Source: Leptolyngbya sp. FACHB-36 (GTDB lineage Bacteria; Cyanobacteriota; Cyanobacteriia; Leptolyngbyales; Leptolyngbyaceae). From it: a stretch of 64,000 nt of DNA. This document shows positions 783-35,669 of the stretch, piece after piece; position 1 is the stretch's first letter, and each line of letters opens with the position of its first letter. The translations under genes and the position numbers were made by a program. The DNA lies in contig NZ_JACJPG010000189.1 in NCBI RefSeq assembly GCF_014695955.1, forward strand, positions 1 through 64,000, read 5' to 3'. The notes beneath the pieces are model-generated. The model was not told where the DNA came from. It did no database searches and was given only the letters and a program-made list of their open reading frames with translations.

Positions 783-842
783 TTCAAGCGTGAATCGTTC
801 ACGCCTGTACCATGTACCACCGTGAATCGTTCATGCTTGAAG
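783..842. promoter_or_regulatory. Nested dyad repeats upstream of the first operon gene
   Basis: GCGTGAA-TCG-TTCACGC at 788-804 is a perfect inverted repeat. CGTGAA-TCG-TTCATG at 821-835 is a second copy with one mismatch. The two are also halves of a larger dyad: TTCAAGCGTGAA starting at 783 is the reverse complement of TTCATGCTTGAA ending at 842 except for one base. The right copy lies at the beginning of the first gene of the operon (start 812 or 833). This is the arrangement of a cooperative repressor operator; the divergent RHH gene is the obvious candidate binder, by inference only. Confidence 0.6.
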
Positions 843-1192
843 TGAGTGTTGAATCTGTTGCTCAGACTGGCTTGTTCCGTCCGCAACTAATTCGGTTGTT
901 GTCTCGGCTGCGGTATCCCCAGATTGACAAGTTTGATCAAATCTTCAATCCGGCACCTCAGATCGACCCAACAACCCTTTGGCTGTGGTGCGATTTGGTG
1001 GGAGTTCGTACGGGATTGGACTGGTTCAGCGAACAGGAGTGTGTGCAGCTCGGCGCGATCGCTCTGTGGTTGATGACTGGGCGCAAGAAACGTGATTTCC
1101 TCGCGCTGTCTGAATCAGAGCTGTATCAGCTACACAGCATTACCGCCCAAAAAATTCACCAACTAGACCGGAGGATCTGTGACTACGATTAA
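812..1192 (+). CDS. Hypothetical protein, first gene of the envelope/ATPase operon
   Basis: 126 residues, no signal peptide or membrane segment. The middle is rich in aromatic residues (LWLWCDLVG, LDWFSEQE) and the C-terminus is helical. I do not recognise the family. An in-frame ATG at 833 would leave the second dyad copy entirely upstream and may be the real start; neither start has a good ribosome-binding site. It overlaps the next gene by 14 bases (1179-1192), which indicates translational coupling and makes it the first member of the operon running to 9.8 kb. Confidence 0.6.
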   Translation: MYHRESFMLEVSVESVAQTGLFRPQLIRLLSRLRYPQIDKFDQIFNPAPQIDPTTLWLWCDLVGVRTGLDWFSEQECVQLGAIALWLMTGRKKRDFLALSESELYQLHSITAQKIHQLDRRICDYD

Positions 1193-1730
1193 AGAGTTGC
1201 ATCGAGACCGTCGCATCGTCAGCCAGAATCGCGGCAGAGCGATCGCGGCTGAATTCAACTACTCGGAGCCGTTTACCACGGCGCAGATGGCGGACATCGC
1301 GGCAGTGGACGCTCTTATGACTCAAGAGGGGCTGCGCGGTGCCAAAGAAGGGGTTGCCCGTTTTCGACGGGGCGGGCAGTCTGCCTCAAATCCCGTTCAG
1401 GACTTTACCCAACAGGTGGAGGAACAGGGAGCTGCTGCCACGACCGCTGCCCAGCAGTCCGTTGCCCAATCCCTAGACCTCGTGGCTCAGAATGAGGCGG
1501 CAGGAATCTTAACGACGAAAAACCTAATGGTGGCGCACTACCTGACGGCTGGGACCGTTCCCGATCCAGGGCTGCAACATCAGATCGATCAGTCGAGCCG
1601 ACTGGTTGAGAACGTCCTTCTGTCCACGGTGCCCGCGTTCAACGTGGGAAACTTGATTCAGCAAGCGTCCATCGTGGCACTACCGTCGTCTGCTCGCACG
1701 GCGCTGCCCGAAGCTACGCCCAGCAGCTAA
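1179..1730 (+). CDS. Hypothetical Ala/Gln-rich protein
   Basis: 183 residues from a GTG start with GGAGG six bases upstream. The N-terminal part is basic (KELHRDRR...QNRGR). The middle is a low-complexity Ala/Gln/Thr helix region (about residues 80-110) that could form a coiled coil. No transmembrane segment is evident. It sits between the unknown first gene and a membrane protein in a tightly packed operon with the ATPase, so a structural or cytoplasmic accessory role in the same apparatus is likely. The function is unknown. Confidence 0.6.
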   Translation: MTTIKELHRDRRIVSQNRGRAIAAEFNYSEPFTTAQMADIAAVDALMTQEGLRGAKEGVARFRRGGQSASNPVQDFTQQVEEQGAAATTAAQQSVAQSLDLVAQNEAAGILTTKNLMVAHYLTAGTVPDPGLQHQIDQSSRLVENVLLSTVPAFNVGNLIQQASIVALPSSARTALPEATPSS

Positions 1731-1759
1731 CCCATTTTGTGGAGTCCTACCACCGTCTT

Positions 1760-2209
1760 ATGCTGAAGCGAATCGTCACCCTTGCCGCCGTCTCAATTTC
1801 CACCGCCGTAGTGGTGGGAGGAGCCGCTTACGTCGCGACCTTGGCGTCGATGGCGGGCATTCTGGCAACCCTGGAAGACCAGGTAAACGACGATCGCATG
1901 ACGGCGATCGCGTCGGTGGTAGGCGTCCAAACCGGAGTCGTCACAGGGGTTATCGCAGGCGCAGCGGCAGGAGTTGCTGCCGCGAGTGGACGCCGCAGAC
2001 CGCAGGTTCATGCGCCGCTTGACGCAAACCAGGTGCTGTTGAAACTGCTGAGTGAGCAGAGGATGCCGGAGGGTATGACCAGCAGCCAGGTCCTCAGCAC
2101 CATCGAAGCAATTGCGCTGGCTCAGGCATCGTCTCGCCTGCCCCAATCCGCACCCGTCGCACAGCCCTCCGAGGCGACTACAGACCAGAGAACTAAGGTC
2201 AACGCCTGA
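1760..2209 (+). CDS. Small membrane protein with two hydrophobic segments
   Basis: 149 residues from ATG 1760; a GTG at 1739 in the same frame would add seven residues. Residues 2-30 form a hydrophobic helix beginning MLKRIVTLAAVSIS, and a second Val/Gly/Ala-rich helix spans about residues 45-72, separated by a short acidic loop with EDQVNDDR. The C-terminal half is soluble and Ala/Pro/Ser-rich. A hairpin of two helices with a soluble tail fits an inner-membrane component of the apparatus encoded by the operon. No family is recognised. Confidence 0.65.
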   Translation: MLKRIVTLAAVSISTAVVVGGAAYVATLASMAGILATLEDQVNDDRMTAIASVVGVQTGVVTGVIAGAAAGVAAASGRRRPQVHAPLDANQVLLKLLSEQRMPEGMTSSQVLSTIEAIALAQASSRLPQSAPVAQPSEATTDQRTKVNA

Positions 2210-2293
2210 TTCTTCGCTCAATTTAGGTTTCTATTCAGCCCGATTAGTCGGGCTGGTAGACTCTGCTGTTCTTCCGATACCACGGTCAAAATC

Positions 2294-3208
2294 ATGTCGG
2301 ACAACGGACGATCGACCGAAAACTTGGAAATCGACGGACTGCCTGCTCCGACGCCCGTTCCGTCGCCTGTCCCCGCTCCAGAGGTGCCGATCACTCTGAT
2401 TGAGCCAGAGGCGGACGCGGTAGAGCCTCGACAGGTCTCTAGAGTGCGGGTGCTGATTGGGCTGGGCGCGATCGGGCTGCTGATGTTGGGAATGACATTT
2501 TGTGCTCGTCCATCCAAGGACAAGCCCGCGACGATTCCCCAGCCGCCGCTTGCAAGTCAGGCGCTCCAAGCACCCGTTCCCACTCCCACGCCGTCGGCGA
2601 CCGCAACGCCAACGCCCACACCGTCCCCGACTCCAGCGCAGGATCAACTGGTCCGCGACCGGAACGACAAACTGCTGGAGGCGATCGGCGAATCCCTCAC
2701 GATGATTCAGCAGACTGGCGGGGCGCGCCGGTCCTACATCATGTCGAATCGGGCGACTCAACCTGACCGCCTGAAAGAGCTGAACCGACAAGCCGACCTA
2801 ATGCTGGATCAGGTTGGTAAGCAGCGGAAATTGTCTGGGAAGCCCGGAGACATCGACACCGCCCGCACGACATCCGGTGACGCCCAGGCGATTCTGCTGG
2901 TGCTGTTGAGAACCTGGATCGAAGACGGCTCGATCACGCCTGAACAGTTAGAGGAGTGGCGGACGAAAAACGACGCGATCGCCGCGCTGATTGATGAGGT
3001 GGTCGATCGGCAGGAGCCGAACGAACTCTCCAGCGCCACCCTCAACAAGAAAATGGCGGAGCTGTCTCGACTGGCGGGTGCCGTCTACTCGCAGTCCGAT
3101 GAAGAACAACAACGCCTCGAAGCCGAGCGGCGCAAAGCTCGGATGCAGGCAGTAAAGAAGGTTCGCAAGCCTCGGACCAACAAGCGCGCCGTCCAGACGT
3201 TGCCATGA
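2294..3208 (+). CDS. Single-pass membrane protein with Pro/Thr-rich stalk
   Basis: 304 residues. A Pro-rich acidic N-terminal tail (residues 15-45) precedes one transmembrane helix (about 50-67, VLIGLGAIGLLMLGMTF). A Pro/Thr/Ala stalk with repeated PTPTP follows (about 75-120), then a helical domain to residue 280 and a very basic C-terminus (RRKARMQAVKKVRKPRTNKR). The layout of membrane anchor, extended stalk and folded domain suits a protein that reaches across the periplasm. The stop overlaps the ATPase start by four bases (ATGA), so the two are translationally coupled and probably partners. Confidence 0.7.
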   Translation: MSDNGRSTENLEIDGLPAPTPVPSPVPAPEVPITLIEPEADAVEPRQVSRVRVLIGLGAIGLLMLGMTFCARPSKDKPATIPQPPLASQALQAPVPTPTPSATATPTPTPSPTPAQDQLVRDRNDKLLEAIGESLTMIQQTGGARRSYIMSNRATQPDRLKELNRQADLMLDQVGKQRKLSGKPGDIDTARTTSGDAQAILLVLLRTWIEDGSITPEQLEEWRTKNDAIAALIDEVVDRQEPNELSSATLNKKMAELSRLAGAVYSQSDEEQQRLEAERRKARMQAVKKVRKPRTNKRAVQTLP

Positions 3209-4722
3209 AACTCAAACCCTTGACCCCACGACACCTCGCCCTCACCGCTGCCAGCGCTCTGCTGGTAGCAATGGTGCTGTGCTTTAAGGCGTCAACGGTG
3301 CGGCAAGAGGTAGCGGGCGTGCGAATGACCGAGGCGGGCACGTTCCAAATGGAGCGGTGGCACATTCCCCGCTCGGATCGTCTCTGGTACGTAATGGGGG
3401 CACTGCTTTGTCTGGGCACGGTCGGCACGCTGCCGTTCGTGCGGCTGCCGTCGGGCGAACTGTTGGTAGAGGTGGACACGCTCGCCGATGACATGCTCGA
3501 CACGATCGAAGTGCTGACCGGCTATGCCAACGCCGCGATCGCACACACCGCACAGGCAGGTTCAACCCTGGCGCTGGCGGCAGGTAAAAAGACGGCGAAG
3601 GTTCTGTACCTGCACGCCACACCGCCTGCCCTCAAGGATGTGATCGATGAAGCAATTAGCGACCAGACCTGGCTGACCACTTTTCTGAAAGCACCGCACA
3701 ACTGGATCATCGGTAAGACTGGCGGCGGCAAAACGATTCTGGCGGGCAAAATTCTGTCGTACACGATTCAGGTGGCGCAAGAGAGTCAGCGCCCGTTTGA
3801 GCTGACGATCTGCGATAAGAACTACGGCAAGCCGAATCCCGAAACCGGAGAAATCAACGACTGGTTCGGCATTCCCAGCGAATACGTCCTCAGCGACCTG
3901 AGCAAAATTGAGCAGTTTATCCGGGAGCAGAAGGAAGAACTTGACGACGAAATCGCCGCTTGGGAGCGCTACGCCCGCGATCGGCAGACGAACCCCAACG
4001 CCAGCAAGCCTGAGTTCAAACGCCGGATCATCCTGATTGAGGAGAACGACGGTACGCAGAAGGAGCTGCAACAAGCATTTGAGCGCCGTCGTCAGGCGCA
4101 AAAGAACTCCCGCACGAAGCCAGCCGAAAAGGATGAATTTTCGTTCATCGAGAACCTGTGCTTCCTGCTGAAAGAGGGACGCGGCTACGGCTGGAAGGTG
4201 ATTCTGATCGGTCAGTCAGCGGCGGTCACGGAGTCGGGCGTCAATGAGGCGCTGAGGACTCAACTGTCGATCGTCATGGTCGGGGACAACTGCGAAATTA
4301 TCCGCGAGGTGCAGAAGTTCGGCGCGGGCGAACCGGCTGCTCTGGTTGTCAAGGCTGCCGAAATCCGCAAGAAGGGTAAGCGGCGCGCGATCGTGCAGCT
4401 AGAGGGCGGCGAACCCGTCGTCCGCGTGGTGCCCGACATGAGCGAGGTGGCGCGGTTCCGCATCCGTCGCCGAGATCCCAACTACGACTGGTGGCAGTCC
4501 GTCTGGACAGAGGAGAACAAAGCGTGGCTGTGGCAGGAAGCGCAGGCAGTCGCGGCTGGCGAAGCTAAGTCGCTGCTGTCGAGCAACCGCAAATTAGAAC
4601 TCAAAGAAAAATTTGGCATTATCCCAGACGGCAACGACCCCCGCTACACCCGCTATTTCAAGGACGCCTGGGAAAAGTTGTTACTGCAAGCAAAGGAGGG
4701 TAGCGATCGCAAAGCAGGCTAG
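3205..4722 (+). CDS. Membrane-anchored FtsK/VirD4-type ATPase
   Basis: 505 residues. Two hydrophobic helices occur in the first 85 residues (LALTAASALLVAMVLCF and VMGALLCLGTVGTLPFV), followed by a cytoplasmic P-loop ATPase. Walker A is GKTGGGKT at about residues 169-176. The Walker B-like strand RRIILIEEND (about 273-282) carries Glu where Asp is usual. VILIGQSAAV (about residues 332-341) fits a sensor/arginine-finger strand of the FtsK-HerA superfamily. The topology and size resemble type IV coupling proteins and FtsK-like DNA pumps, which move DNA or protein substrates through a membrane pore. Neighbours are membrane proteins and cell-wall hydrolases, which supports an envelope-spanning translocation role. 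The substrate is unknown; no relaxase is nearby. Confidence 0.8.
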   Translation: MKLKPLTPRHLALTAASALLVAMVLCFKASTVRQEVAGVRMTEAGTFQMERWHIPRSDRLWYVMGALLCLGTVGTLPFVRLPSGELLVEVDTLADDMLDTIEVLTGYANAAIAHTAQAGSTLALAAGKKTAKVLYLHATPPALKDVIDEAISDQTWLTTFLKAPHNWIIGKTGGGKTILAGKILSYTIQVAQESQRPFELTICDKNYGKPNPETGEINDWFGIPSEYVLSDLSKIEQFIREQKEELDDEIAAWERYARDRQTNPNASKPEFKRRIILIEENDGTQKELQQAFERRRQAQKNSRTKPAEKDEFSFIENLCFLLKEGRGYGWKVILIGQSAAVTESGVNEALRTQLSIVMVGDNCEIIREVQKFGAGEPAALVVKAAEIRKKGKRRAIVQLEGGEPVVRVVPDMSEVARFRIRRRDPNYDWWQSVWTEENKAWLWQEAQAVAAGEAKSLLSSNRKLELKEKFGIIPDGNDPRYTRYFKDAWEKLLLQAKEGSDRKAG

Positions 4723-4752
4723 TCAGTTCACTGAAAACAACAGGAGGTAGAG

Positions 4753-5199
4753 ATGTCGGACAATCCAGTAGGACAAGCAGCTGGAGGGCTAATCGGTTTG
4801 GTGGTGACGGCAGGGATTGTCGTCTATGTCGTGATTCCCGGCATGGTCGGAATCGGCACGCAGAGATCGCCACAGAACGGCAGCCTGGAGCAACCAGGCG
4901 ACGTAGCTCAGTGGTTCTTTGCCAATGTCGGGCGACTGTCGAGTGACTTTGCCGTCACGTTCCAGCGTGACAAAATTCAGGGTCCCGTCGCCGGAACCGC
5001 TGGACAGGGAACTGGGCGGCAACTGCTGCCTCAGTCCTACACCGCGCCTGCCGCTCCCGCGCCGTTCACCCAGGTGACGACGACCGGGGAAATGGTTGGA
5101 GGAACCCCCGTGACCACGCCGCAGCCGGTTCCGCTCCAGGTTGCACCCGGACAGTTCCTCAGCTACGAGCAGCTCCAGCAGCAAGGATCGCAGCCGTGA
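4753..5199 (+). CDS. Small single-pass membrane protein
   Basis: 148 residues, with a strong ribosome-binding site AGGAGG seven bases before the ATG. One hydrophobic helix lies at residues 11-34 (GGLIGLVVTAGIVVYVVIPG). The remainder is a Gln/Pro/Thr-rich, mostly unstructured tail containing PQPVPLQVAPGQF. It follows the ATPase directly and overlaps the next gene by four bases. It is probably a pseudopilin-sized or bitopic assembly subunit of the same system, although no prepilin peptidase motif is visible. No family is recognised. Confidence 0.65.
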   Translation: MSDNPVGQAAGGLIGLVVTAGIVVYVVIPGMVGIGTQRSPQNGSLEQPGDVAQWFFANVGRLSSDFAVTFQRDKIQGPVAGTAGQGTGRQLLPQSYTAPAAPAPFTQVTTTGEMVGGTPVTTPQPVPLQVAPGQFLSYEQLQQQGSQP

Positions 5200-5876
5200 G
5201 ACTGACGACGCTCCTAGCCCTGTGTGGTGTCGTTGGGCTGCTCTGGCTGTTCGAGATCCATAAGCGGATTTCGTGGCAAGAACTCGCACGCTTTCAGGGC
5301 TGGAGCGATCTCCAGCGCAACGCGCAGACCGTGACCGGATACGTCAACGATCGGGTGAAGTCGATCGAGCCGTCGAGGACGGCTCCACCCGATCCGAATC
5401 AGAAATTGATGGAAGACCCCAACTGCTACGACGCCCGCACCCAGCAGCGGAATCCGTCATGCAGTTGGCAGACACCGCCCGCACCTCAGTCGCCTGCGGG
5501 TAAGCCAGACGCAGACGCTCCCACCTACGCGAATCCCAACATTCCGTATCCCCAAGCGCCCCAGCCTCAGATCGACCCTCGCCGCGATCCTGACTGGATG
5601 ATGAAACAGTGCCAGCCCGGAACCGTTAATCCTGGTTCGCGACTGAAGCGGGATGAGTACGATCGGCACCTGACGCAGACGTATCTGGGGCAGTCGTCGC
5701 CACTCCTGAACAACACGTGGGACCGCTACTGTGTGGGTCCTGAGGGCGACTGGATCTATATCCCCGAATGGCTCGACGGAGCGCCAGAGGGTGAGGAATT
5801 TGGCTACCGGCTGCACGTGTTTCCAGACGGCAGCCCCGACCTAATCGAGAAGCCGATCGGCGGTCGATACCTGTAA
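5196..5876 (+). CDS. Secreted or membrane-anchored hypothetical protein
   Basis: 226 residues from a GTG that overlaps the previous stop (GTGA). The N-terminus MRLTTLLALCGVVGLLWLFEIHKR is a signal anchor with no clear cleavage site. The body is Pro/Asp/Asn-rich and contains five cysteines (NCYDARTQQRNPSC; MMKQCQ; DRYC), which suggests disulphide bonds outside the cytoplasm. Trp-rich motifs occur near the C-terminus (GDWIYIPEWLDG). It fits an extracytoplasmic component of the operon's apparatus. No known domain is recognised. Confidence 0.65.
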   Translation: MRLTTLLALCGVVGLLWLFEIHKRISWQELARFQGWSDLQRNAQTVTGYVNDRVKSIEPSRTAPPDPNQKLMEDPNCYDARTQQRNPSCSWQTPPAPQSPAGKPDADAPTYANPNIPYPQAPQPQIDPRRDPDWMMKQCQPGTVNPGSRLKRDEYDRHLTQTYLGQSSPLLNNTWDRYCVGPEGDWIYIPEWLDGAPEGEEFGYRLHVFPDGSPDLIEKPIGGRYL

Positions 5877-5895
5877 TCCACCTAACGAGAACAAC

Positions 5896-6018
5896 ATGAC
5901 GACCGGAAATATTGAATCGGTCTACGGTCCTGTGGAAGCTGACACCCCCTATACAGAGGAGGAAGTCGCTGAAATCATGGGCAGCCAAGACGACAACGAC
6001 GACGTAACAGAGGACTAA
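5896..6018 (+). CDS. 40-residue acidic small protein
   Basis: ATG 5896 to TAA 6018 encodes 40 residues, strongly acidic at the C-terminus (GSQDDNDDVTED). It fills the gap between two operon genes with 19 bases before and 3 after, and its last codons contain the ribosome-binding site GAGGA for the next gene. Position and spacing argue that it is translated. The function is unknown. Confidence 0.45.
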   Translation: MTTGNIESVYGPVEADTPYTEEEVAEIMGSQDDNDDVTED

Positions 6019-6021
6019 CCG

Positions 6022-6351
6022 ATGACCTGCTTAACCGATCTACATCACGAGTTAATTCCGAACGTGTTGACAGAATTGGAGCCAGCGCTTCGAGTCGTCC
6101 GAGGCGAGGCGGCGATGTCCCATCGGGACATGAACCTCAATATTGCAGTTGCCAGAGGACGGCTGGCTGAGATTCTGAATATGGCGTCTGACTCGCCGAC
6201 AGAGTTTGACGAACGCATCATCCAGCGGACTAGATACGCCTACAAAATGCTGCGATCGTGGGAACTTGCCTCCCAGGGAGAAATCGGACTGCCGTTCAGC
6301 GATTTAGAGGAATTGATCGACCTGGCGATACAGCTGTTGCAGGTGATGTAA
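6022..6351 (+). CDS. Small helical hypothetical protein
   Basis: 109 residues with a good ribosome-binding site (GAGGA) upstream. It is predicted all-helical, without membrane segments or signal peptide, and ends with LIDLAIQLLQVM. Its stop codon overlaps the next start (TAATG). It is a soluble, probably cytoplasmic member of the operon, of unknown function. Confidence 0.6.
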   Translation: MTCLTDLHHELIPNVLTELEPALRVVRGEAAMSHRDMNLNIAVARGRLAEILNMASDSPTEFDERIIQRTRYAYKMLRSWELASQGEIGLPFSDLEELIDLAIQLLQVM

Positions 6352-6710
6352 TGAAGCCACTCTATTCCGTTTGGGAGGTCGCCTCTCGCTGGGACCCAGA
6401 CATCCAGGGTTATCGAGAGCGGCAGGTTTTGTCCGGGCTGACCCATGAAGAAGCTCGCTACATTGCAGACTTCCGATCGATGGGCAGCGACTGCTACAGC
6501 TATTTCGTCCGCCTCGATCTGCCTCGTGTTCGGTGGGTCCTCGTGGTGCCGCCAGAGGAGCGCAACTCGTACCCTGGCTACTGCCACGGATCGACGGGAC
6601 GGAATTATGAGTTCTCGCCCCACCGAGATGGCACCGTCTCAGTCTGGTTTGACAGCGGCTCCCTGTTTCCTGTTCCGTCTGCTTGGATCTGCCCTGTTTC
6701 TCCGCCATGA
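6351..6710 (+). CDS. Hypothetical protein, translationally coupled
   Basis: 119 residues from ATG 6351, which overlaps the previous stop; a longer in-frame reading from 6258 is rejected because it would overlap the previous gene by 94 bases. The protein is rich in aromatics and Arg (YSVWEVASRWDP; YCHGSTGRNYEFSPHRDG). There is no membrane segment. The last four bases (ATGA) overlap the start of the next gene. The family is not recognised. Confidence 0.55.
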   Translation: MKPLYSVWEVASRWDPDIQGYRERQVLSGLTHEEARYIADFRSMGSDCYSYFVRLDLPRVRWVLVVPPEERNSYPGYCHGSTGRNYEFSPHRDGTVSVWFDSGSLFPVPSAWICPVSPP

Positions 6711-7711
6711 CGACAACGTTTGACCCCAACGTCAACCGCCACCGCGATCGCGGTGGGCGTTTCACCAATCCTCGACGGCGGCGCGGCTCCCCCGGCAATC
6801 CTCCGCCACAGCCACCACAGCTATCGAACAAAGATCTGGCGACGTTGCAGCGACTGTTGCGCGACTACACTCAGGGCTATCTGCGCGAGAAAATTATCCT
6901 GCGGGCTGCCCATAATATCGCGAAGCATCACAGCAAGCGGGGCAAGGATCACCTGCTGGAGTGGACGGTCTTCTTCTTGTTTTTGGCAGCGCTGTTCGTT
7001 GCCTATGCCACTCCGTTCAATGCGCCCGCGACAACTGCCGCGACGATCGCGCCCGCGACGGCTTCAGCCTCATCGGTAGAGCCTGCCGTTGCCGACGAGT
7101 CCCCGTCGCCCGAAAGTCAGCGGCAGCTCGCCAGCAAAATCGTCTCCTACCTGACGGCAAAAGGTTGGAGGTTTAGCCAACAGGCGGGAGAGGTGACGAT
7201 CGTCTATCTGGAGGGCAAAAACGCCGACGGTAGCGACAACGACAACGCGCCCGACCAGTTCAACGATCGCCGCGTCGTCCTGACGTTTAAGGACGGGCAG
7301 CCGACGATCGGCGGCAACTGGGTAGCCACGATCAGCCCTGGTGACTATTACATCAAGAACAAGATGAACCCCAAGGGCACGGCATTCGTGCGCCCTGGCG
7401 AGTACCGGGAGGGCTGGACGATCGGCACCCATCAGGGAGCGTCTTCCGCGCCGCAGGAGGCGCTGGTGCAGGCGGCTCCGATCACCGTCTATCGCGACAA
7501 CATCAGCGCCGACACCGGCGATTTCGGCATCAATCAACACGGCGGTTGGGATGCGCCACTCAACCAGGTGGGCAATACCAGTGCGGGCTGCCTGGTCGGT
7601 CGCACGGTCGAGGGGCATCAGGAGTTTATGCAGATGGTTAAGAGTGATCGCCGCGCTCAAAATTCCGCGTTTCGATTCGACACGCTCATTATCCCGAAGG
7701 GAGGTTTCTAG
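6707..7711 (+). CDS. Membrane-anchored protein with L,D-transpeptidase-like H...SxGC domain
   Basis: 334 residues from ATG 6707, which overlaps the previous stop (ATGA). The N-terminus is basic and Pro-rich (NPRRRRGSPGNPPP). One transmembrane helix follows at about residues 86-104 (TVFFLFLAALFVAYATPF), then an Ala/Thr linker and a periplasmic domain from about 140. Near the end, GINQHGGW (His about 278) is followed by NTSAGCLV (Cys about 294). His plus SxGC is the signature of YkuD-type L,D-transpeptidases and related phage peptidoglycan enzymes. I infer a cell-wall remodelling enzyme serving the apparatus of this operon. The family assignment is by motif only; the endolysin-like gene at 61420 has the same motif pair. 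Confidence 0.6.
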   Translation: MTTTFDPNVNRHRDRGGRFTNPRRRRGSPGNPPPQPPQLSNKDLATLQRLLRDYTQGYLREKIILRAAHNIAKHHSKRGKDHLLEWTVFFLFLAALFVAYATPFNAPATTAATIAPATASASSVEPAVADESPSPESQRQLASKIVSYLTAKGWRFSQQAGEVTIVYLEGKNADGSDNDNAPDQFNDRRVVLTFKDGQPTIGGNWVATISPGDYYIKNKMNPKGTAFVRPGEYREGWTIGTHQGASSAPQEALVQAAPITVYRDNISADTGDFGINQHGGWDAPLNQVGNTSAGCLVGRTVEGHQEFMQMVKSDRRAQNSAFRFDTLIIPKGGF

Positions 7712-7993
7712 ATGCTGTTCAAGGTCGCTCACGGTTTACTCATCCGTCGCAAACTCACTGACGATGAGCAGGCATGGCTGTATTTCTTCTTCGTGTTCGG
7801 CAGCCTGTGGATGACGATCGTGATGCTGCTGGCGGGATTCGTCGCTGCCGACTCGAAGATTAAGGACCGCTGCGCCGTCGCTGCGTTGATCTTCGGATGC
7901 ACCGTCCCAACCTCGCTGTTTACTGCCTTTGCATTGACCACCGACAGAGACATCGACAGAGACGATGACGATGACGATGACGATCGCGATTAA
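7712..7993 (+). CDS. Two-pass membrane protein with poly-Asp tail
   Basis: 93 residues starting directly after the previous stop, with GGGAGG just upstream. Two hydrophobic helices lie at about residues 22-45 and 54-74. The protein ends in an acidic tail of nine Asp residues among Arg, which is encoded by GACGAT repeats that also supply the ATG starts of the next gene in another frame. It is an inner-membrane component of unknown function. Confidence 0.6.
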   Translation: MLFKVAHGLLIRRKLTDDEQAWLYFFFVFGSLWMTIVMLLAGFVAADSKIKDRCAVAALIFGCTVPTSLFTAFALTTDRDIDRDDDDDDDDRD

Positions 7994-9200
7994 GCTGGCG
8001 TGGAAGCTGATTTCCCGCAAGCGGTCCAGTCGTCGATCTGCGGCAGGGCGCGACACCCTAGCGTACTGGGCAGGGCGCGGCACGATCGACGACTGGACTT
8101 ATGAACTGGTCATCATTCTGCTGTTGTTGGTCATCGCGGCTCGGTTCATCGCGCCGGTCGGTACAGTGGTGCAGCAGGCGGTGCAGCAGATTCAGTCGGC
8201 AGCCGCACCGCAACCCAACGGCAGCACGCAGATCGTGGCGCTGCGACAGGCGATCGTCGGGCAGGAGTCCAACGGCGACCCATCACTCCAGAATGCCAGT
8301 GGATCGGGCGCAATGGGACTAGGGCAGGTGATGCCGGAGAACCTGCCATCCTGGAGCCGCGAGGCGCTGGGGCGAGAAATCACGCAGCAGGAATTTCTCA
8401 GCAGTCCGGATCTACAGCTGAAAATCATCGACCACAAAATCGATCAGTATTGGCAGTCCGCCATCAAAGCCGCCAATGGCAATCAGGATGAGGCAGTGCT
8501 GCGGGTGGCGGCACAGTGGTACAGCGGCGACCCGGAGAAATACACCAGCACGACGCCGCAGTCGTGGGCAGGCGATTCCTATCCCTCGATCGCCGAGTAT
8601 TCCCAGCAGGTCTTGCAGCGCTACAAGGCAATTCCGCAGGCGGCAGTCAGCCCAGCCAAGCCTTCAGCTTCGATCGGCTCCAGCGCTCCCATCTCCAGCG
8701 TCGTCAAAATTTACAGTGGCGGTGAGATTGGCTCCGGCGTCGTGGTCACGCCGAACCGCATTGCGACCGCTGCCCATGTGCTGAAAGATTTAGGGCAAAT
8801 CAATATTCAAGCGGGCGACCAGTCGTTCACAGGGCGAGTCATTGCCACGGACCGCTCCACAGACTTGGCGATCGTGGAGGTTCAGAGAACCCTTGCCCCC
8901 GCTCGCCTAACCAAGGTGCAACCCACCGTAGGCGAACAGGTGACGGCGATCGGTAATCCCCGCAATCAGGGGATTCAAGCGACGACAGGCAAACTGACGA
9001 GTGCCAGCATCATGAGTGGCGTTACGCACTCAGCCCCAATCTTCCCCGGCAGTTCCGGCGGCGGGCTATTCAACGATCGAGGCGAACTTATCGGCATCAA
9101 CATCCGGGCAGACTATGCCGATCCTGATAAAGCAACGGGTTTCATTTCGGGACGGGCAATTCCTACGCCTGTCATCACGGCACGACTGGAGGCACTATGA
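7965..9200 (+). CDS. Membrane-anchored lytic transglycosylase fused to a trypsin-like serine protease
   Basis: 411 residues. A transmembrane helix spans about residues 46-65 (ELVIILLLLVIAARFIAPVG). A goose-type/SLT lytic transglycosylase domain follows (about 88-220), with catalytic Glu in VGQESNGDP, SGAMGLGQVMP and AAQWYSGDP; it would cut glycan strands of peptidoglycan. A chymotrypsin/HtrA-type protease domain then runs from about 240 to 405, with TAAHV (His), STDLAIVEV (Asp) and PGSSGGGLF (Ser), so the triad is complete. No PDZ domain is present. Three in-frame ATGs (7965, 7971, 7977) overlap the previous gene. Lytic transglycosylases of VirB1 type open the wall for secretion systems; a fused protease is unusual. 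Confidence 0.85.
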   Translation: MTMTMTIAIKLAWKLISRKRSSRRSAAGRDTLAYWAGRGTIDDWTYELVIILLLLVIAARFIAPVGTVVQQAVQQIQSAAAPQPNGSTQIVALRQAIVGQESNGDPSLQNASGSGAMGLGQVMPENLPSWSREALGREITQQEFLSSPDLQLKIIDHKIDQYWQSAIKAANGNQDEAVLRVAAQWYSGDPEKYTSTTPQSWAGDSYPSIAEYSQQVLQRYKAIPQAAVSPAKPSASIGSSAPISSVVKIYSGGEIGSGVVVTPNRIATAAHVLKDLGQINIQAGDQSFTGRVIATDRSTDLAIVEVQRTLAPARLTKVQPTVGEQVTAIGNPRNQGIQATTGKLTSASIMSGVTHSAPIFPGSSGGGLFNDRGELIGINIRADYADPDKATGFISGRAIPTPVITARLEAL

Positions 9201-9694
9201 GCGACGGTAAAACTCACGACTTCATCACGATCTCCACCAGTCCCGTTATCGGCTGTCTGGCGGCGCAGATGTCAGCAACGGTTGCGGTAACAACGACGAT
9301 CGGGTATTTGGTGGGCGGGTTGCTCCTGTCGCCCGACCTGGATGTCAAATCACGCCCCTGGCGGCGATGGGGCTGGCTGCGGTTTATCTGGCTGCCGTAT
9401 CAGAAACTGGTGCCTCATCGCAGTTGGATCTCCCACACGCCGATCGTCGGTACGCTGATTCAGTTGTCGTATTTAGGCGCGATCGTGCTACTGGCCGCCA
9501 CGTTGTTGGGAATTGATGTTTGGACGATCGTTCGAGTGGTCGTCGATCGCCAGCAGGATGTAGGGGAAGGCAATCCGTGGAGCGTGAACTGTTTTGCGTT
9601 AATCACTGGGCTTTGCTTGGGATCTTGGGCGCATCTCGTTGCTGATACGCTGAGCAGCCTAGGTAAACACAAAAAGAAGAAGCGCCGACCGTGA
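9197..9694 (+). CDS. DUF2227-like metal-binding membrane protein
   Basis: 165 residues starting in the overlap ATGA. The pattern of the uncharacterised DUF2227 family is visible: early SDGKTHD, then LLLSPDLDVKSRPWRRWG, WLPYQKLVPHRSW and a C-terminal SWAHLVAD. The conserved His and Asp residues suggest metal binding, and several hydrophobic segments suggest a membrane protein. Its role is not established for the family. It is near the end of the operon, and its C-terminus is very basic (KHKKKKRRP). Confidence 0.7.
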   Translation: MSDGKTHDFITISTSPVIGCLAAQMSATVAVTTTIGYLVGGLLLSPDLDVKSRPWRRWGWLRFIWLPYQKLVPHRSWISHTPIVGTLIQLSYLGAIVLLAATLLGIDVWTIVRVVVDRQQDVGEGNPWSVNCFALITGLCLGSWAHLVADTLSSLGKHKKKKRRP

Positions 9695-9813
9695 CCGGAA
9701 AGCTCGGGAGTGCGAGGGGTGACCTCCGCTTGAATCGAAGTGGTTTTGGAGTCGATGATAAGGAACTGCTAGACCTACCTGATCGGGCATTCAATAATTC
9801 AGATACGCCTTGA
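9691..9813 (+). CDS. 40-residue coupled small ORF at the end of the operon
   Basis: A GTG at 9691 overlaps the stop of the DUF2227 gene (GTGA) and opens a 40-codon frame to TGA 9811-9813. The product is hydrophilic with an acidic centre (GVDDKELLDLPDRAF). Four-base overlap starts are used several times in this operon (3205, 5196, 6707, 9197), which supports translation. The function is unknown. Confidence 0.4.
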   Translation: MTGKLGSARGDLRLNRSGFGVDDKELLDLPDRAFNNSDTP

Positions 9814-11377: not shown

Positions 11378-11431
11378 TAATATTACTAATATTACTAATA
11401 TTAGTAATATTAGTAATATTAGTAATATTGG
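11378..11431. repeat. Six tandem 9-bp iterons TAATATTAS
   Basis: Uninterrupted 9-bp units: TAATATTAC twice (11378-11395), TAATATTAG three times (11396-11422) and TAATATTGG once (11423-11431). The array sits about 74 bases from both the RHH start (11304) and the methyltransferase start (11508). The shared TAATATTA core is palindromic, so either strand can be read. The base composition (nearly pure AT) also makes it a likely melting or promoter region. Confidence 0.85.
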
Positions 11432-11507: not shown

Positions 11508-12620
11508 ATGGTGACTGCACATAGCAAGCCGCTCTCTCACTGCCGTTGGTTGACGGCGGTGGACTTGTTTTGTGGATGCGGTGGTGTGACCGCAGGTTTA
11601 AAGCAACACAACTTTCGGGTGGTTGCAGCCGTTGACGAAGACCCGAACGCTTGCAATACCTATCGGGTGAATCATCCAACCGTTCACCTGTATCCTTACG
11701 ACATTAGGACTGTTAATCCTCAAGACATCCGCGACGTTGATCTGCATGGTGAGGATCTTGACTTGTTAGTGGTGTGTGCGCCCTGTCAGCCGTTCAGCAG
11801 TCAGAATCGCTCCAATAAGGTAGATGAGCGCTCGGATTTAATTTTTCAAGCGACTCGATTTGCCAAAATTCTCAAACCTGCCGTTATCTTCTTTGAGAAT
11901 GTGCCGGGACTGGCAACACTCAAATACAGGGGCTTACTCGATACACTTAGAGCAGATTTAGCTAAACTCAACTATCAGTTGAGTGAACCCTTACCAATTG
12001 ACGCAGCAGATTATGGCGTTCCGCAAAGACGCAAACGATGTATTCTACTGGCAGTTCTCGATGCCCCTGTTCCTCCTATCCCAGTGCCAACAACCCCGCA
12101 AGGGCAGCGAGTGACAGTTAAGCAAGCTATTGGACATCTGCTTTCTCTCAAATCAGGAGAAGGAGATCCGGATGACCCCTTACATCAAGCCAGCACACAT
12201 CTACCCCTCGTGCTAGAGCGGTTGCACTTCATTCCGAAGAATGGAGGCAGTCGCTATTCCTTGCCTCCACATCTGGTGTTAGATTGTCACCGAAATCATA
12301 AAGGACATGGCGATGTATATGGGAGAATGCAATGGGGCGATGTAGCCCCAACCCTGACAACCGGATGTACGAATGTTACACGCGGACGCTTCGCTCATCC
12401 TCAAGACGATAGAGCCATTACGCTACGAGAGGCAGCACTGCTACAAACGTTCTCCCCATACTACGAATTTGTCGGTAATCGCGACCAAATTACGGCACAG
12501 ATAGGTAATGCCGTTCCAGTCAAACTGATGAGTGCTTTCGCTCCAACCTTAAGAAGCACAATCAAGCAAGCAAGACAACCTGTGGCTTCATCTGTTAATC
12601 CAGCTTCATCTGTTTCCTAA
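11508..12620 (+). CDS. DNA (cytosine-5-)-methyltransferase
   Basis: 370 residues. All main C5-methyltransferase motifs are present: I DLFCGCGG (19-26), IV APCQPFS with the catalytic Cys (about 94-100), VI ENV (about 130), VIII QRRKR (about 173), IX REAALLQTF and X QIGNAVP (about 331-337). It transfers a methyl group from S-adenosylmethionine to cytosine C5 in a specific site; the target cannot be read from sequence. Its 3' end overlaps the convergent nuclease-like gene by 26 bases, so the three genes to 16310 form one module. It probably marks self DNA for the HerA-containing restriction complex. HIP1 sites seem rarer here than in the flanking genes, suggesting transfer. Confidence 0.92.
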   Translation: MVTAHSKPLSHCRWLTAVDLFCGCGGVTAGLKQHNFRVVAAVDEDPNACNTYRVNHPTVHLYPYDIRTVNPQDIRDVDLHGEDLDLLVVCAPCQPFSSQNRSNKVDERSDLIFQATRFAKILKPAVIFFENVPGLATLKYRGLLDTLRADLAKLNYQLSEPLPIDAADYGVPQRRKRCILLAVLDAPVPPIPVPTTPQGQRVTVKQAIGHLLSLKSGEGDPDDPLHQASTHLPLVLERLHFIPKNGGSRYSLPPHLVLDCHRNHKGHGDVYGRMQWGDVAPTLTTGCTNVTRGRFAHPQDDRAITLREAALLQTFSPYYEFVGNRDQITAQIGNAVPVKLMSAFAPTLRSTIKQARQPVASSVNPASSVS

Positions 12621-14733
12621 GATGTTGAATCAACTCTCGCAGCCTGTCTTGAACCTCCTCACCTAAAACATCACGAGCATAGGTAACAACCTCGTGTGCC
12701 GAGCGAGTGACATCTGGAACTAGAATCGGCAATCTTGAATCTCGGTTCCCCGTGTCAAATTTGCTTTGACTGTGATAGTCGTCAAACTCCCAATGTTCTG
12801 CAATCCATGAAATCAGTCCGATGAACTTCTCTTCCTCCTGACTACGCTGCTGCAAGCCAAACGCAACCTCTAGCCGGGGAAGCAGAAAATGCCGACCCTC
12901 ACTTGTGTGCTTAATGATCTCCAGCGGTTGAGCAGGCGCAGCGTAGAACATTGAAACACCCACCTGTTCTAAGAGATATAGAAAATACGAGTAATCGGCT
13001 GGATCTCGTACACGCTGGTTCCTGCGCTTATGTTCGCTGTATCTTGCAGCAATGAATTTCTTCCAATCCTCCCTGTCGTCTTCATTCACCCAGCGATTCT
13101 CTGCCTCAATAAAGGCAGGCCCATTTTTAATGCCAATATCTGAGAATCTGCGAACGGCGCGAAACGTAACAAATACATAGTCCTCATCAGGACTTGCATT
13201 GGTCATATTAATTGCTGTTTGAGCTTTAGACCATCCTAGAAACAACAGATGAGCAACTGCTGTATCACCAAAGGGAATACGATACACATCTTCTCTGGAA
13301 ACAACCAATTCACCACCAGTCTTACGCAAGTCTTGCTGATGAATAAACCAGAAGATTAGCGGCGCGAGAAATGACATTTCAGGATCTTTGACTGCCGCTC
13401 CATACACAATATGGCTAGTTGGGCCGGAAAGAGTTTGATGAGCGACTTTCGCAAATAAATCAATCTCCTTTTTAACCAGGCGACCATATAGCCCTGTGTC
13501 CTCGTAATCCTCAATGCGATGCACGAGTGGAAAAATACGTCCATCTCGAATGACCAGCGAGGGGTTTGACTCGATTCCCATTGCCGGAATTCCACCGATC
13601 GGTCGCCAATCTGCTTCACGATTCACGATGCGGAAATCTTCATAGTATTGCCTGAGATCCATCGCAGCCATGCGCGAATGCTTGAAGCCATCCTCCGGTA
13701 GCTGATGACGAAGAGCGGGAGAAAGCAGCAATCCTTCTTCTGATGCTCGACTCTCTGTGTACTCCTTCAATCGATCTGGAAAAACGTCGAAGTCCTGGAA
13801 TGCGTAGTCTGGATACTCTCGATTTGTCAGTGCCGCTCCAGCCGTAATTACGGCAATGGGTTCTGGTGGAATAAACGACCCCTGAGAATGCTCAAGAAAG
13901 ATGTCAGCGACCGAAGCATCTGTGCCTGCTGCTGACTTGTGTAGATCCAGAGGCACACGCCTTAATTCAATGACTGTCTTGCCGAAAACGCGCTGCCGAA
14001 GCCGTTCTTTGGCAGCTTCAGCATCTAAAGAAGCAGTCTCGCCATATCGACAATCTTTTGCCCGTGATGGCAGAAATAAAATGCCTGGTTCATCACCGCG
14101 AGGGGCATCTAAACGCCACATCTGTTGCAAGTGTTTCCTAGCCCACTCTAAGCGGCCATCGAGTTCTGCTGCAATCTCCCCACTGGTGCGCATCTCTCGT
14201 TTGGCGACTGCCATAAGCATCTGATTGACTAGCCCGTTGATGTCGTCAACAACCCACTGAGCCATTTCTAGCAACAGGTCAACTGGATCTTGGGCTGATA
14301 ATAATGGAGCAACTTGAACAATTGCCCAAGCAGCAGCATCTTGATTCAAATGCTCATGCGCAATTTGCTCCATGACTGAGCGAGAGCGGGTGTTCAGTCG
14401 GCGCTGTTCGTCATCAACCTCTGCTTCTGCTAAATCAGTCTTCGTCTGAATCTCGGTTCTTGCGCCAACCAGTTGATCTAAAAACGATCCCTGCTTGGGT
14501 AATTCGTCCGGATGAAAGTAAGCGAATGGAGGTTTTCCAAGCGCTGATGTAGACCGCCGAATGCGAATGACCCGGCTCTCTTCCGTCATTTTTTTCAACC
14601 GCAGTTGCAGTGAACGAAGCGTTAGCTTGCGAGAAGCTTGGAGTCGCACATGAATATCATCTGCCAGTAGACCTTCTGGTTGTCCAATCAGCAGATCAAG
14701 GATCACATCTTCTATTAATGGTTCTGTCGCCAT
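12595..14733 (-). CDS. Large NurA-like partner of HerA (putative nuclease)
   Basis: 712 residues. The N-terminal 80 residues look like a winged helix (LADDIHVRLQASRKLTLRSLQLRLKKM). The C-terminal half has blocks that recall NurA nucleases: GIPAMGIESNPSLVIRDGR (about residues 380-398), IVYGAAVKDPEMSFLAP, and a late LLPRLEVAFG. The canonical DGS motif of NurA is not obvious, so the catalytic assignment is uncertain. The gene overlaps the herA gene by 19 bases and is translated after it. NurA-HerA pairs form a DNA-end-processing machine, and in bacteria HerA often pairs with a variable nuclease for defence. The context supports this more than the sequence does. Confidence 0.5.
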   Translation of the reverse strand: MATEPLIEDVILDLLIGQPEGLLADDIHVRLQASRKLTLRSLQLRLKKMTEESRVIRIRRSTSALGKPPFAYFHPDELPKQGSFLDQLVGARTEIQTKTDLAEAEVDDEQRRLNTRSRSVMEQIAHEHLNQDAAAWAIVQVAPLLSAQDPVDLLLEMAQWVVDDINGLVNQMLMAVAKREMRTSGEIAAELDGRLEWARKHLQQMWRLDAPRGDEPGILFLPSRAKDCRYGETASLDAEAAKERLRQRVFGKTVIELRRVPLDLHKSAAGTDASVADIFLEHSQGSFIPPEPIAVITAGAALTNREYPDYAFQDFDVFPDRLKEYTESRASEEGLLLSPALRHQLPEDGFKHSRMAAMDLRQYYEDFRIVNREADWRPIGGIPAMGIESNPSLVIRDGRIFPLVHRIEDYEDTGLYGRLVKKEIDLFAKVAHQTLSGPTSHIVYGAAVKDPEMSFLAPLIFWFIHQQDLRKTGGELVVSREDVYRIPFGDTAVAHLLFLGWSKAQTAINMTNASPDEDYVFVTFRAVRRFSDIGIKNGPAFIEAENRWVNEDDREDWKKFIAARYSEHKRRNQRVRDPADYSYFLYLLEQVGVSMFYAAPAQPLEIIKHTSEGRHFLLPRLEVAFGLQQRSQEEEKFIGLISWIAEHWEFDDYHSQSKFDTGNRDSRLPILVPDVTRSAHEVVTYARDVLGEEVQDRLRELIQHLRKQMKLD

Positions 14734-16310
14734 TGCTGCACGGCCTCCTTCATCTTAGGGGTAGGCGCACCACTCGGAGTACTGCGGTCACGGACGTTGA
14801 CGAGGACAGGATGACGTAGGATGTCTTGGGCGGAGGCAATGATTGCTCGTCCTCTTGCCATCTTCGGAATGCGGTCAATCACAGGCTGGGGTAAATCGCC
14901 CATCGTCCCTGAGACAACCTTGAGGTCATCTGGGTCGAGCGCAAATACGACGCGAGTGTTGCAGACCGTCAAGGTTTGTTTGTCCATTGATGCTGGGCTT
15001 TGAGTAATCAAGACGACACCGACTGCATCATGGCGACCCGTGCGAATTAGCTGCCGCATAACCTGAGTGGTAGGGGTGGACTCTCCACCCCCTGGAAGAA
15101 AGAAGTGCGCCTCGTCAAGAACAAAGAGGAATGGCGGCAGTTTTTCCTTCTGCCTCAGCACTTGTAGGACGCGAGCAGCAGCACCGACAACTAGGTTGCG
15201 GTTGCCTTGTGCTAAATGCCCCACAAAGATATTGACGATGGGTTTAGTGATGAGATCTTCGACCCATGCTCCCAAAGATTCCACTAGAAGTAGGCTGCGC
15301 TCAAAAGCAGCCTTTACCCGCTTAATGGCTCGCCCTCCAACAGGTTCTTGTCCGTTCTCCCCCGCAACAAGACGAATTTCAGCATAGAGTCGTTCAATTG
15401 GAATATTGACTGTGCCAGTCTCCTTCAGGCTCTCAATTGCTTCTGTGTAGATCACATCGTAGGCATCTGAGACAAGGTCGATGTGCTGGTCCGTCAAGGT
15501 TGGAACAAAATCTAGAAACTCCTTGCGCCCAATAATACTATAGGGAACCTTGAAATCTTGACCAGCCCTCAGATTCGCCCCCTTTAAACTCTCAGTTGCT
15601 GGAACCAGATCGCCCAGAATGTCGATGGCGATAATGGGAATTCGGTACCGTGTAATCTCCTCAACCATCACGCCACAGAAGTGACTTTTGCCCACACCTG
15701 TCTTGCCAAGAACTGCCATGTGACGGGGTAGCACATCCATTGGCAAACAAAATTGCAGCTTGTGCCCACCTGTTTCAATGTGCCCAATGGACAATCCATC
15801 CTCGTTAGGCTTAGGTGTTTTAAGAATGTCAGGAAGAGCGCTAGTAGGTAATTCATAAACCGCCATTCCTGTTTGAGGCAGTACCTCTGGGTCTCGGATA
15901 TCAACTTGGTCGTCCTTTTGGTCGTCCTTCAGTCGCAACTGACCTAAAATCTCAATATTCATGACACGAGTGACATGAGGTGCAAGTTCTGAGGGACGGG
16001 GCGTTCTCGGCACTGCTTGATAAGCTTGGTCTTTCTGAAGTCGAGACGGCTCGGCTCTGGGGTTCTCTTCAAGCCCCTCAACAATCCGTCCGTAGTGCGC
16101 CATTGTTGGCTCCTCACTACCAATGAGAACAAAGGTTCCTAAACGTGGTTGCTTACCAGCGTTGACATGAAAGGGAGCAGCATCAAAGCTGGGAGAGCCT
16201 GTAAAGGGAGAGGAGGAGGTTGTACCAATACTTGTTGCTGGAGCAACACCCAAGTGAGCAAGCAATGTAGCCTGGGGCTGCGGAGCAGGAGGAGTAGCTA
16301 TACTTCTCAT
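14715..16310 (-). CDS. herA: HerA-family DNA translocase ATPase
   Basis: 531 residues. An N-terminal HAS-barrel-like part (MAHYGRIVEGLEENPRAE, about residues 90-107) precedes the ATPase. Walker A GKTGVGKS lies at about 204-211, Walker B FLFVLDEAHFF at about 394-404, and VVLITQSPASMD fits the sensor strand. HerA forms hexamers that pump double-stranded DNA and couple to a nuclease. The first 60 residues are Pro/Ser/Thr-rich and low complexity. The stop overlaps the nuclease-like gene, and the start is preceded by the repeated GCGAAATAT motif. It is the likely motor of a methylation-guarded defence module. Confidence 0.88.
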   Translation of the reverse strand: MRSIATPPAPQPQATLLAHLGVAPATSIGTTSSSPFTGSPSFDAAPFHVNAGKQPRLGTFVLIGSEEPTMAHYGRIVEGLEENPRAEPSRLQKDQAYQAVPRTPRPSELAPHVTRVMNIEILGQLRLKDDQKDDQVDIRDPEVLPQTGMAVYELPTSALPDILKTPKPNEDGLSIGHIETGGHKLQFCLPMDVLPRHMAVLGKTGVGKSHFCGVMVEEITRYRIPIIAIDILGDLVPATESLKGANLRAGQDFKVPYSIIGRKEFLDFVPTLTDQHIDLVSDAYDVIYTEAIESLKETGTVNIPIERLYAEIRLVAGENGQEPVGGRAIKRVKAAFERSLLLVESLGAWVEDLITKPIVNIFVGHLAQGNRNLVVGAAARVLQVLRQKEKLPPFLFVLDEAHFFLPGGGESTPTTQVMRQLIRTGRHDAVGVVLITQSPASMDKQTLTVCNTRVVFALDPDDLKVVSGTMGDLPQPVIDRIPKMARGRAIIASAQDILRHPVLVNVRDRSTPSGAPTPKMKEAVQQWRQNH

Positions 16311-29344: not shown

Positions 29345-29766
29345 AGTTTGACCTGCTAGGAAATACGTACTATCTGCGCGGCGATCGTCTTGTCAAGTCA
29401 AACGATCCGGTTCGGCGCGTCATGCACTGGCACAAAATGCGAATTGGCGTGTCCCATGACCCAGGCGACCAGCGGCACGGACGAGCCATCACAGCAGGGT
29501 ACGGGCACATTCGCGGTAGTTACGGAGATGCCGAAGACGGGATGGCGATCGACGTGTACATCGGTCCTGACCTTGCCAGTCGTGAGGTGTTTCGCGTCAA
29601 GCAGATCAACCCAGAAACGGGCGAGCTGGACGAGTACAAATACATCATCGGTTGTTGGGTGCAGCAGGAAGCGAAGCGCCTGTACCTAGCAAACATGCCC
29701 AAGAAGTTCTTTGGCGGCATTGAGCCCGTGGACATTAAATCTCTTCAGAAGTACCAGGTTCGCTGA
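29338..29766 (+). CDS. Phage inorganic-pyrophosphatase-like (InPase) domain protein
   Basis: 142 residues from a TTG. The conserved phrase of the phage InPase domain is present: ITAGYGHIRGSYGDAEDG, MAIDVYIGP, REVFRVKQINPETGELDEY, KYIIGCW and KRLYLANMPKKFFGGI. The acidic residues around AEDGMAIDVYIGP fit metal and pyrophosphate binding. Such domains occur alone or inside polyvalent proteins delivered by phages and conjugative elements, where they may drive nucleotide or DNA synthesis. Its stop overlaps the start of the 1630-residue protein (TGATG), a common pairing for this domain. Confidence 0.7.
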   Translation: MLKFDLLGNTYYLRGDRLVKSNDPVRRVMHWHKMRIGVSHDPGDQRHGRAITAGYGHIRGSYGDAEDGMAIDVYIGPDLASREVFRVKQINPETGELDEYKYIIGCWVQQEAKRLYLANMPKKFFGGIEPVDIKSLQKYQVR

Positions 29767-34658: not shown

Positions 34659-34679
34659 ACGACTAATTAAGAGTAACCG

Positions 34680-35225
34680 GTGGCAACTTTTAGCAGTAAC
34701 GCCTTCCTAGATCAAGTCACCTATAGCGCTGCTGAAGCGCACACGATCAACGGTGGTGCAACGCTGACGATCGCGGCTCAGCTAGAGATGTCATCAACCA
34801 TCGCTCGATTGCAGTCGTCATTCGCCCTCGATCAACTGGAATCGCTATATCAACTGAGTGTGTTAGTTCTCTCGTTTGCTCAAGCCGGAGGCACCGTGAA
34901 TCCTGGAATCCTGCATCTCAAACAGGGCGACCATCTGAAGCCAATCCGCTTTCACCTGTTCGAGGTTGCTGACAAGAAGAAAATACCGACAAATCTAACC
35001 GAAGCGGTTTCGGTCAAGTTGCTGTATTGGCGCAACAGTCGAGCACAGCAGGTTGCACGGTCCCTGATCGTCGAAAATCCGTCAGATGGAATCTTGTTCT
35101 ACGAGTGGACCAAAGCGGACACCTCAACGCCTGGAAAATACTTTGCTGAGATTAAGGTGACTTTCAGTTCTGAGCGAATTCAGACGTATCCAGAGCAGGG
35201 CTATTTTGAGTTCACGATCGTCTAA
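34680..35225 (+). CDS. Virion protein with BppU-like baseplate domain
   Basis: 181 residues from a GTG. The second half has the beta-rich pattern of the BppU N-terminal domain: LKQGDHLKPIRFHLFE, IPTNLTEAVSVKLLYWRN, DGILFYEWTKADTSTPGKY and the final YFEFTIV. BppU connects receptor-binding proteins to the baseplate of tailed phages. The first half is Ser/Thr/Ala-rich. It follows the giant helicase gene by 21 bases. A minor structural role is likely. Confidence 0.6.
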   Translation: MATFSSNAFLDQVTYSAAEAHTINGGATLTIAAQLEMSSTIARLQSSFALDQLESLYQLSVLVLSFAQAGGTVNPGILHLKQGDHLKPIRFHLFEVADKKKIPTNLTEAVSVKLLYWRNSRAQQVARSLIVENPSDGILFYEWTKADTSTPGKYFAEIKVTFSSERIQTYPEQGYFEFTIV

Positions 35226-35343
35226 GACGCTGACGATTTGTCTCAAGTCATGGTAGGTTGTCGTATCCGGAAATCGCCTAATGATTCGTATCTATTTTGG
35301 CTCTGCCGATATTCCCACCCTTAAACAAGTCAAGGAGTTAATC

Positions 35344-35643
35344 ATGGCTACTCAAGCTGAATTCGATAGCAAGATTGAAGAACTCAAATCCACGATCGCA
35401 GCCGAAAAAGAAGAGGCGGTCGCTGTCATCAAGAGTGCAGTGAGCGAAGCGATTTCGCCTCTAGAATCCACGATCGCAGAGCTTCGGACCCAGCTAGAAG
35501 AAGGACTGGACTACACCAACGCGATCGCCTCACTAGAATCGGCAACGGCGGCAGTGCGTGACATCGTTACGTCGGACAGACCGGAACCAGCAGAACCTGT
35601 TCCACCGTCCGAGTCTGAAACGACAGACGACGCCCCCTTCTAG
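35344..35643 (+). CDS. Short coiled-coil phage protein
   Basis: 99 residues from ATG 35344, which has AAGGAG at proper spacing; a longer frame from 35281 lacks one. The body is a continuous coiled coil (EFDSKIEELKSTIAAEKEE ... LESTIAELRTQLEEG) and the C-terminus is an acidic Pro/Ser tail. It could be a tail fibre clamp, scaffold or chaperone. It is followed immediately by a strong terminator. Confidence 0.65.
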   Translation: MATQAEFDSKIEELKSTIAAEKEEAVAVIKSAVSEAISPLESTIAELRTQLEEGLDYTNAIASLESATAAVRDIVTSDRPEPAEPVPPSESETTDDAPF

Positions 35644-35669
35644 ACTTTCAGGAAACCAACTTTGTCCCC

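Follow-up and report, generated by a model that had tools for sequence, protein, structure and literature searches.

Introduction

TraB of Streptomyces transfers double-stranded DNA (dsDNA) without other subunits of a type IV secretion system (T4SS), and Spd membrane proteins function in spread within the mycelium (PMC12857230, PMC4170104). The VirB4 ATPase is the signature subunit of all described T4SSs (PMC12857230), and TdtA of the Thermus element ICETh1 is a second motor that works without VirB4 (PMC5365140). Here, we analyze an operon of Leptolyngbya sp. FACHB-36 that may encode a further VirB4-less translocator. It occupies the forward strand at positions 812-9694 of the window, the 64,000-nucleotide stretch that forms the start of the 130-kb contig NZ_JACJPG010000189.1. 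At its heart lies a conserved module (genes B, C, D, E, E' and F, Table 1), in which a membrane-anchored ATPase, D, is accompanied by small membrane proteins and tethered wall hydrolases.

The module resembles the TraB/Spd systems of pIJ101 and pSVH1 in its FtsK-type motor with N-terminal transmembrane (TM) helices, its small membrane partners, its occurrence on small plasmids, its filamentous host and the lack of VirB4. However, D is shorter than TraB, the host is of the Gram-negative type and phages are among the carriers. TraB is not known to depend on a hydrolase gene of its own, whereas the module has wall hydrolases. By description, TdtA is likewise an FtsK/HerA-class ATPase of a small mobile element that donates DNA without a T4SS, but the accessible part of that work reports neither wall hydrolases nor C-like proteins, and the recipient uses the competence machinery. 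Among the markers by which a T4SS is recognized, no VirB4 family protein was found on the large open reading frames (ORFs) of the window that were scanned, and no relaxase in the module or on these ORFs. As a sequence-only reading of this DNA had stated, no pilin, secretin or VirB6-10 protein turned up either. No described conjugation system matched the operon subunit by subunit. ORF122-ORF129 of the Planktothrix phage PaV-LD, where ORF127 is annotated as FtsK/SpoIIIE, constitute the same module; the available portion of the earlier work treats these genes as a lysis module, unlinked to the ATPase or to plasmids. No description of the module was found in the open-access literature searched.

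D belongs to the FtsK-HerA superfamily

As a single sequence, D gave no significant Pfam match, and the superfamily signal appeared only with family profiles. The D-family profile A5, built from 24 members, matched HerA (1.6e-9) and EccC/FtsK (8.8e-8) in the PDB, and the FtsK_SpoIIIE Pfam family was matched by five of these members (best 2.4e-5). In hhalign comparisons, the probabilities of which are uncalibrated against a database and in part involve single sequences on one side, D ranked highest with FtsK_SpoIIIE (95.8%) and TraB of pIJ101 (87.6%, the best single-protein match among the transfer ATPases compared), followed by VirD4 (67.7%), VirB11 (60.7%) and TrwB (59.6%). Much lower values were obtained for VirB4 of R388 (8.5%), the HerA-like ATPase of the window (7.3%), ParA (2.1%) and the terminase and helicase (0.2%); unrelated NTPase controls did not exceed 2.1%. 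The profiles thus place D in the FtsK-HerA superfamily, where FtsK_SpoIIIE and Streptomyces TraB are its closest neighbours and VirD4 is more remote. The earlier designation as FtsK/VirD4-like therefore stands for the superfamily but needs correction towards FtsK/TraB. More distant D-like ATPases (L069, L071, L072, L115, L116 and L118-L120) have different neighbours and were left out of the module counts.

Gene order is conserved in phages, plasmids and genomes

The core order B, C, D, E, E', F, preceded by a gene A or by ParM together with a small protein of DNA-binding type, was found in phage PaV-LD, in IMG/VR contigs, in plasmids or contigs of Oscillatoria and Laspinema, and in cyanobacterial genomes. 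The operon is accordingly part of an envelope module that is uncharacterized, as had been supposed, and conserved; the B-C-D-E-F order recurs across phage, plasmid and genome loci. Using D as tblastn query, only PaV-LD was retrieved from 50,697 phage records and only pOSCIL6304.01 and pOSCIL6304.02 from 72,556 plasmids. Profile-guided scans yielded five loci on genome contigs (Oscillatoria, Laspinema, Pantanalinema) and 17 loci in IMG/VR, including the window itself. When 390 cyanobacterial genomes were compared with profile A5, 16 matched with E values no higher than about 1e-100, and a further 20 fell between 1e-25 and 1e-8. Hidden Markov model (HMM) searches were iterated with lenient thresholds, the main safeguard being a match at the syntenic place. 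Homologues of C were recovered at about 30 distinct loci, all overlapping or abutting the start of D, and homologues of B only just upstream of C. Since these homologues all hold the same positions beside D, the gene set goes beyond chance association.

Almost the whole operon, including A2 and the DUF2227 protein as last gene, is also present in genome G189. At other loci, the place of A2 is taken by a helix-turn-helix (HTH)/coiled-coil protein or by ParM with the small DNA-binding-type protein. ParM homologues occur on seven module-bearing elements and are annotated as ParM/StbA in Oscillatoria. In G002, G010 and G032, the module lies beside phage genes (in G032 as judged by eye).

The Oscillatoria plasmids pOSCIL6304.01 and pOSCIL6304.02 carry no annotated phage structural genes; one of the two encodes a MOBP relaxase, the other no relaxase. 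Among plasmid-type copies, the ratio of nonsynonymous to synonymous substitution rates of C and D was 0.06-0.09. Hence, strong purifying selection acts on the C and D genes of plasmids that lack annotated phage structural genes. Two small contigs look circular: G158:C17 (20,043 bp, 113-bp terminal overlap), which carries a terminase small subunit, and G339:C510 (22,279 bp, 77-bp terminal overlap), which carries a tape-measure protein. As each bears a single class of phage gene, they may be satellites or phage-plasmids.

F proteins are membrane-tethered wall hydrolases

The 34 F proteins contain M23 (25), SLT (10), GH108 (6), phage lysozyme (4) and trypsin (5) domains, M23 usually being combined with a muramidase or transglycosylase domain, and nearly all consist of a cytosolic tail followed by one TM helix and the enzyme domains. 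Some tails share the motif [FW][DN]...R[YHW]...G[RKQ]F. The glycosidase is exchanged among families while its position is constant, and conservation in F therefore appears to concern the cutting of the wall as such. In the window operon, F1 shares its N-terminal motif, FDPNVNRHRDRGGRF, with other F proteins, and an endolysin-like domain with an SAGC motif replaces the usual M23 domain. F2 matched Trypsin_2 (3e-24) and DegS (3.9e-13), with a weak SLT match. The lytic transglycosylase and trypsin-like protease named by the sequence-only reading were thus both recovered, but in one protein, the protease being an optional part. Its L,D-transpeptidase-like protein is F1, in which only an H..G...SAGC motif points to such an enzyme; F1 has no Pfam match, and its PHROG matches are phrog_3000 and an endolysin family.

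Membrane-anchored multi-domain wall hydrolases (LytM/M23 plus SLT) beside a motor are also known from Gram-positive T4SSs, where the VirB1-like proteins PrgK, CwlT and TraG resemble F; PrgK combines LytM, SLT and CHAP domains (PMC11323569). Those systems contain VirB4, VirB6 and VirB8, none of which was found with the module. A 1001-aa protein at G000:C100:72979-75984 (L012) has regions 43% and 33% identical to the SLT and M23 module proteins of G189; it is possibly a tail hydrolase engaged in domain exchange with F.

Possible function of the module

A minimal DNA translocator accounts better than the explanations considered below for an FtsK/TraB-class motor, small membrane partners, tethered hydrolases and a DNA-segregation gene that occur on both plasmids and phages. 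We tentatively propose that the module is a VirB4-less dsDNA translocator of cyanobacterial mobile elements that works like TraB/Spd, a substantial possibility that we place slightly short of probable. D would form a ring-shaped motor of FtsK/TraB type in the inner membrane, while B, C and E/E', as bitopic or small membrane partners, would assemble the passage. TM anchor and cytosolic tail would hold F at the site of D, where F could cut the local peptidoglycan, and the trypsin-like domain of some copies might process or clear F. The upstream protein (HTH/coiled-coil, or ParM with the small DNA-binding-type protein) would deliver element DNA to the motor. This DNA would thereby reach an adjacent cell, in the simplest case through the septal wall of a filament, as with TraB/Spd in the Streptomyces mycelium. 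Ring assembly, complex formation, DNA as the substrate, the direction of transport and the intercellular role are what we infer for the module from its gene content.

Several results weigh against a DNA translocator. The majority of carriers either are phages or contain phage genes, and the distant relatives of D in genome family f23 (L118, L119, L120), which may be a separate system, have no recognizable F. AlphaFold gave poor models for C (pLDDT 47.0) and D (51.5), without a significant Foldseek match. In the stretches scanned, no convincing clt-like cluster of 8-bp repeats was seen near the module, the few clusters present resembling ordinary repeats, and the conserved helical C-terminus of D matched the Pfam family HTH_38 in a single member (0.0012). 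Because the clt-like repeats were not found and the C-terminal HTH is uncertain, we do not claim that D is a TraB. A point in favour of the translocator is the host range: HetR, a proxy for filamentous cyanobacteria, is present in 16 of the 18 genomes with a C-confirmed module (about 18 of the 390 sampled) and in 195 of 390 overall (one-sided p 5e-4); G000 (82% complete) and G279 lack it. Phylogeny and genome size are confounders here, so that the link is only a hint. The growth inhibition described below for two PaV-LD proteins, by contrast, speaks for lysis.

The main alternative is a lysis or egress complex of phages, in which F proteins would act as endolysins and E' as holin, while D would energize or time the opening of the thick cyanobacterial wall. 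PaV-LD ORF123 and ORF124, reported as endopeptidase and holin, are growth inhibitors in both E. coli and Synechocystis (PMC9096620). ORF123, with its M23 domain and TM helix, and ORF124 occupy the F and E' positions. Of holin and wall hydrolase, the two components of a lysis cassette, hydrolases are present in the module, and a holin role of the ORF124 position comes from PMC9096620 only. F proteins match many endolysin PHROGs, and a partial scan recognized no further endolysin in the window, leaving aside what is probably a tail hydrolase of this contig. On the other hand, F has a membrane tether and a long tail in the cytosol, and the module is not confined to phages, since purifying selection maintains it on plasmids that have no annotated phage structural genes. 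We know of no lysis cassette with an FtsK-like motor or ParM, and consider this explanation unlikely. Another alternative is a segregation aid, in which D would pump element DNA through the closing septa of the dividing cell, FtsK-like, so that daughters keep the element. ParM adjoins an FtsK-like motor in the module, and an FtsK_SpoIIIE match at 1e-10 was obtained in only 5 of 20 relatives of the host and not in the host genome itself; as segregation leaves the wall hydrolases tethered to the complex unexplained, we give it little credence.

A protein export machine, as a distant functional analogue of type VII secretion, would equate D with EccC, which is among its nearest solved structures by sequence (8.8e-8), and the DegS-like protease of some F copies with MycP. 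D, however, has one P-loop domain where EccC has three, neither EccB nor EccD was recognized and no WXG100-like ORF was seen in the module, the protease is restricted to 5 of 34 F proteins and there is no conserved cargo gene, all of which makes export improbable. Equally doubtful is an entry or exclusion apparatus that controls the crossing of phage or plasmid DNA into the carrying cell, either as ejection aid or in superinfection exclusion. The module is phage-linked, and its combination of membrane parts and wall enzymes is broadly similar to trans-envelope ejection proteins; yet it also resides on plasmids and on 20-22 kb elements without a recognized capsid set, C and D had no match in PADLOC, and no exclusion system known to us needs a motor and two wall hydrolases.

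If the module is a DNA translocator, a compact transfer system without relaxase, VirB4 or VirD4 markers would escape the mobility criterion under which 88% of 424 plasmids from cyanobacteria counted as likely immobile (PMC8600333), and could explain how "immobile" plasmids spread. That both phages and plasmids carry it would blur the boundary between viral and conjugative spread, and a testable question would be the passage of mobile DNA through the septa of a bacterial filament. A wider version seems to us rather unlikely: in multicellular cyanobacteria, phages and plasmids would have in common a dedicated machine for movement between cells, in which a TraB-like dsDNA pump equipped with wall-cutting enzymes takes prophage, satellite or plasmid genomes through the septa along the filament without a virion, a role like that of the movement proteins of plant viruses.

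Gene content of the operon and other features of the window

The ORF tables of the window give about 13 genes on one strand (Table 1), further frames being short and overlapping and excluded from the count. The tight coupling described earlier is borne out by four-base overlaps at 3205-3208, 5196-5199, 6707-6710 and 9197-9200. The earlier count was about 15 genes. Membrane proteins surround the ATPase, as had been noted: a hydropathy scan predicted two TM helices each in the ORFs starting at 1739, 3205 (D itself) and 7712 and one each in those at 2294, 4753, 5196, 6707, 7965 and 9197. The first protein of the operon had no Pfam or PHROG match. C was considered as a VirB8/EccB relative and rejected, as it gave no PDB profile match and is helical in its weak model.

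Table 1. Genes of the operon in the window.
Gene or product	Position	Strand	Basis
126-aa soluble protein, first gene	812..1192	+	ORF; DNA binding possible, by eye only
A2: 183-aa helical, Ala/Gln-rich soluble protein	1179..1730	+	36% identity to G189 protein at the same place
B: small 2-TM protein, short helical tail	1739..2209	+	Family HMM; homologues only just upstream of C elsewhere
C: 304 aa with one TM helix (53-71), a Pro-rich linker and a C-terminal domain that is helical in a low-confidence model (pLDDT 47)	2294..3208	+	HMM
D: 505-aa membrane-anchored P-loop ATPase, TM 11-29 and 63-81, GKTGGGKT, conserved helical C-terminal region	3205..4722	+	Family profiles
E: 148 aa, single TM	4753..5199	+	Position and topology match other loci
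E': 226 aa, single TM	5196..5876	+	Position and topology match other loci
109-aa soluble protein, outside conserved core	6022..6351	+	ORF only
119-aa protein, outside core, coupled to preceding gene by TAATG	6351..6710	+	Sequence
F1: type II membrane protein, endolysin-like domain	6707..7711	+	phrog_3000 (7.6e-25), phrog_33083 (endolysin)
93-aa 2-TM protein	7712..7993	+	ORF, TM prediction
F2: single TM helix with SLT transglycosylase-like and DegS-like trypsin domains	7965..9200	+	Pfam; 40% identity to F of G002
DUF2227 membrane protein	9197..9694	+	Pfam (4.4e-45); 49% identity to last gene in G189

The window also encodes a large terminase (21298) and a portal protein (25055). Beyond it, the same contig contains genes that by eye resemble capsid, tail sheath and tape-measure genes, and IMG/VR lists the first 44.3 kb as a viral contig. 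On these grounds, a large tailed prophage, with the operon at its left, is the most likely carrier. A phage-like or plasmid-like carrier had been supposed; both kinds of element carry the module, and the one at hand is most likely narrowed to a prophage. A tRNA-His gene (199-272) was considered as attachment site, but a repeat of its 3' end is absent from the first 104 kb of the contig, and integration there is unproven.

Two giant genes lie at 29766-42218, encoding a 1630-aa helicase (29766) and a 2163-aa DarB-like antirestriction methylase/helicase (35727). A C5 DNA methyltransferase gene (11508-12620, forward strand) adjoins an opposite-strand pair, the HerA-like ATPase (14715-16310), which several PADLOC HerA models match, and a 712-aa protein of unknown function (12595-14733); the region 11508-16310 is a candidate defence or restriction locus. 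Nearly six tandem copies of TAATATTAG are present at 11378-11429.

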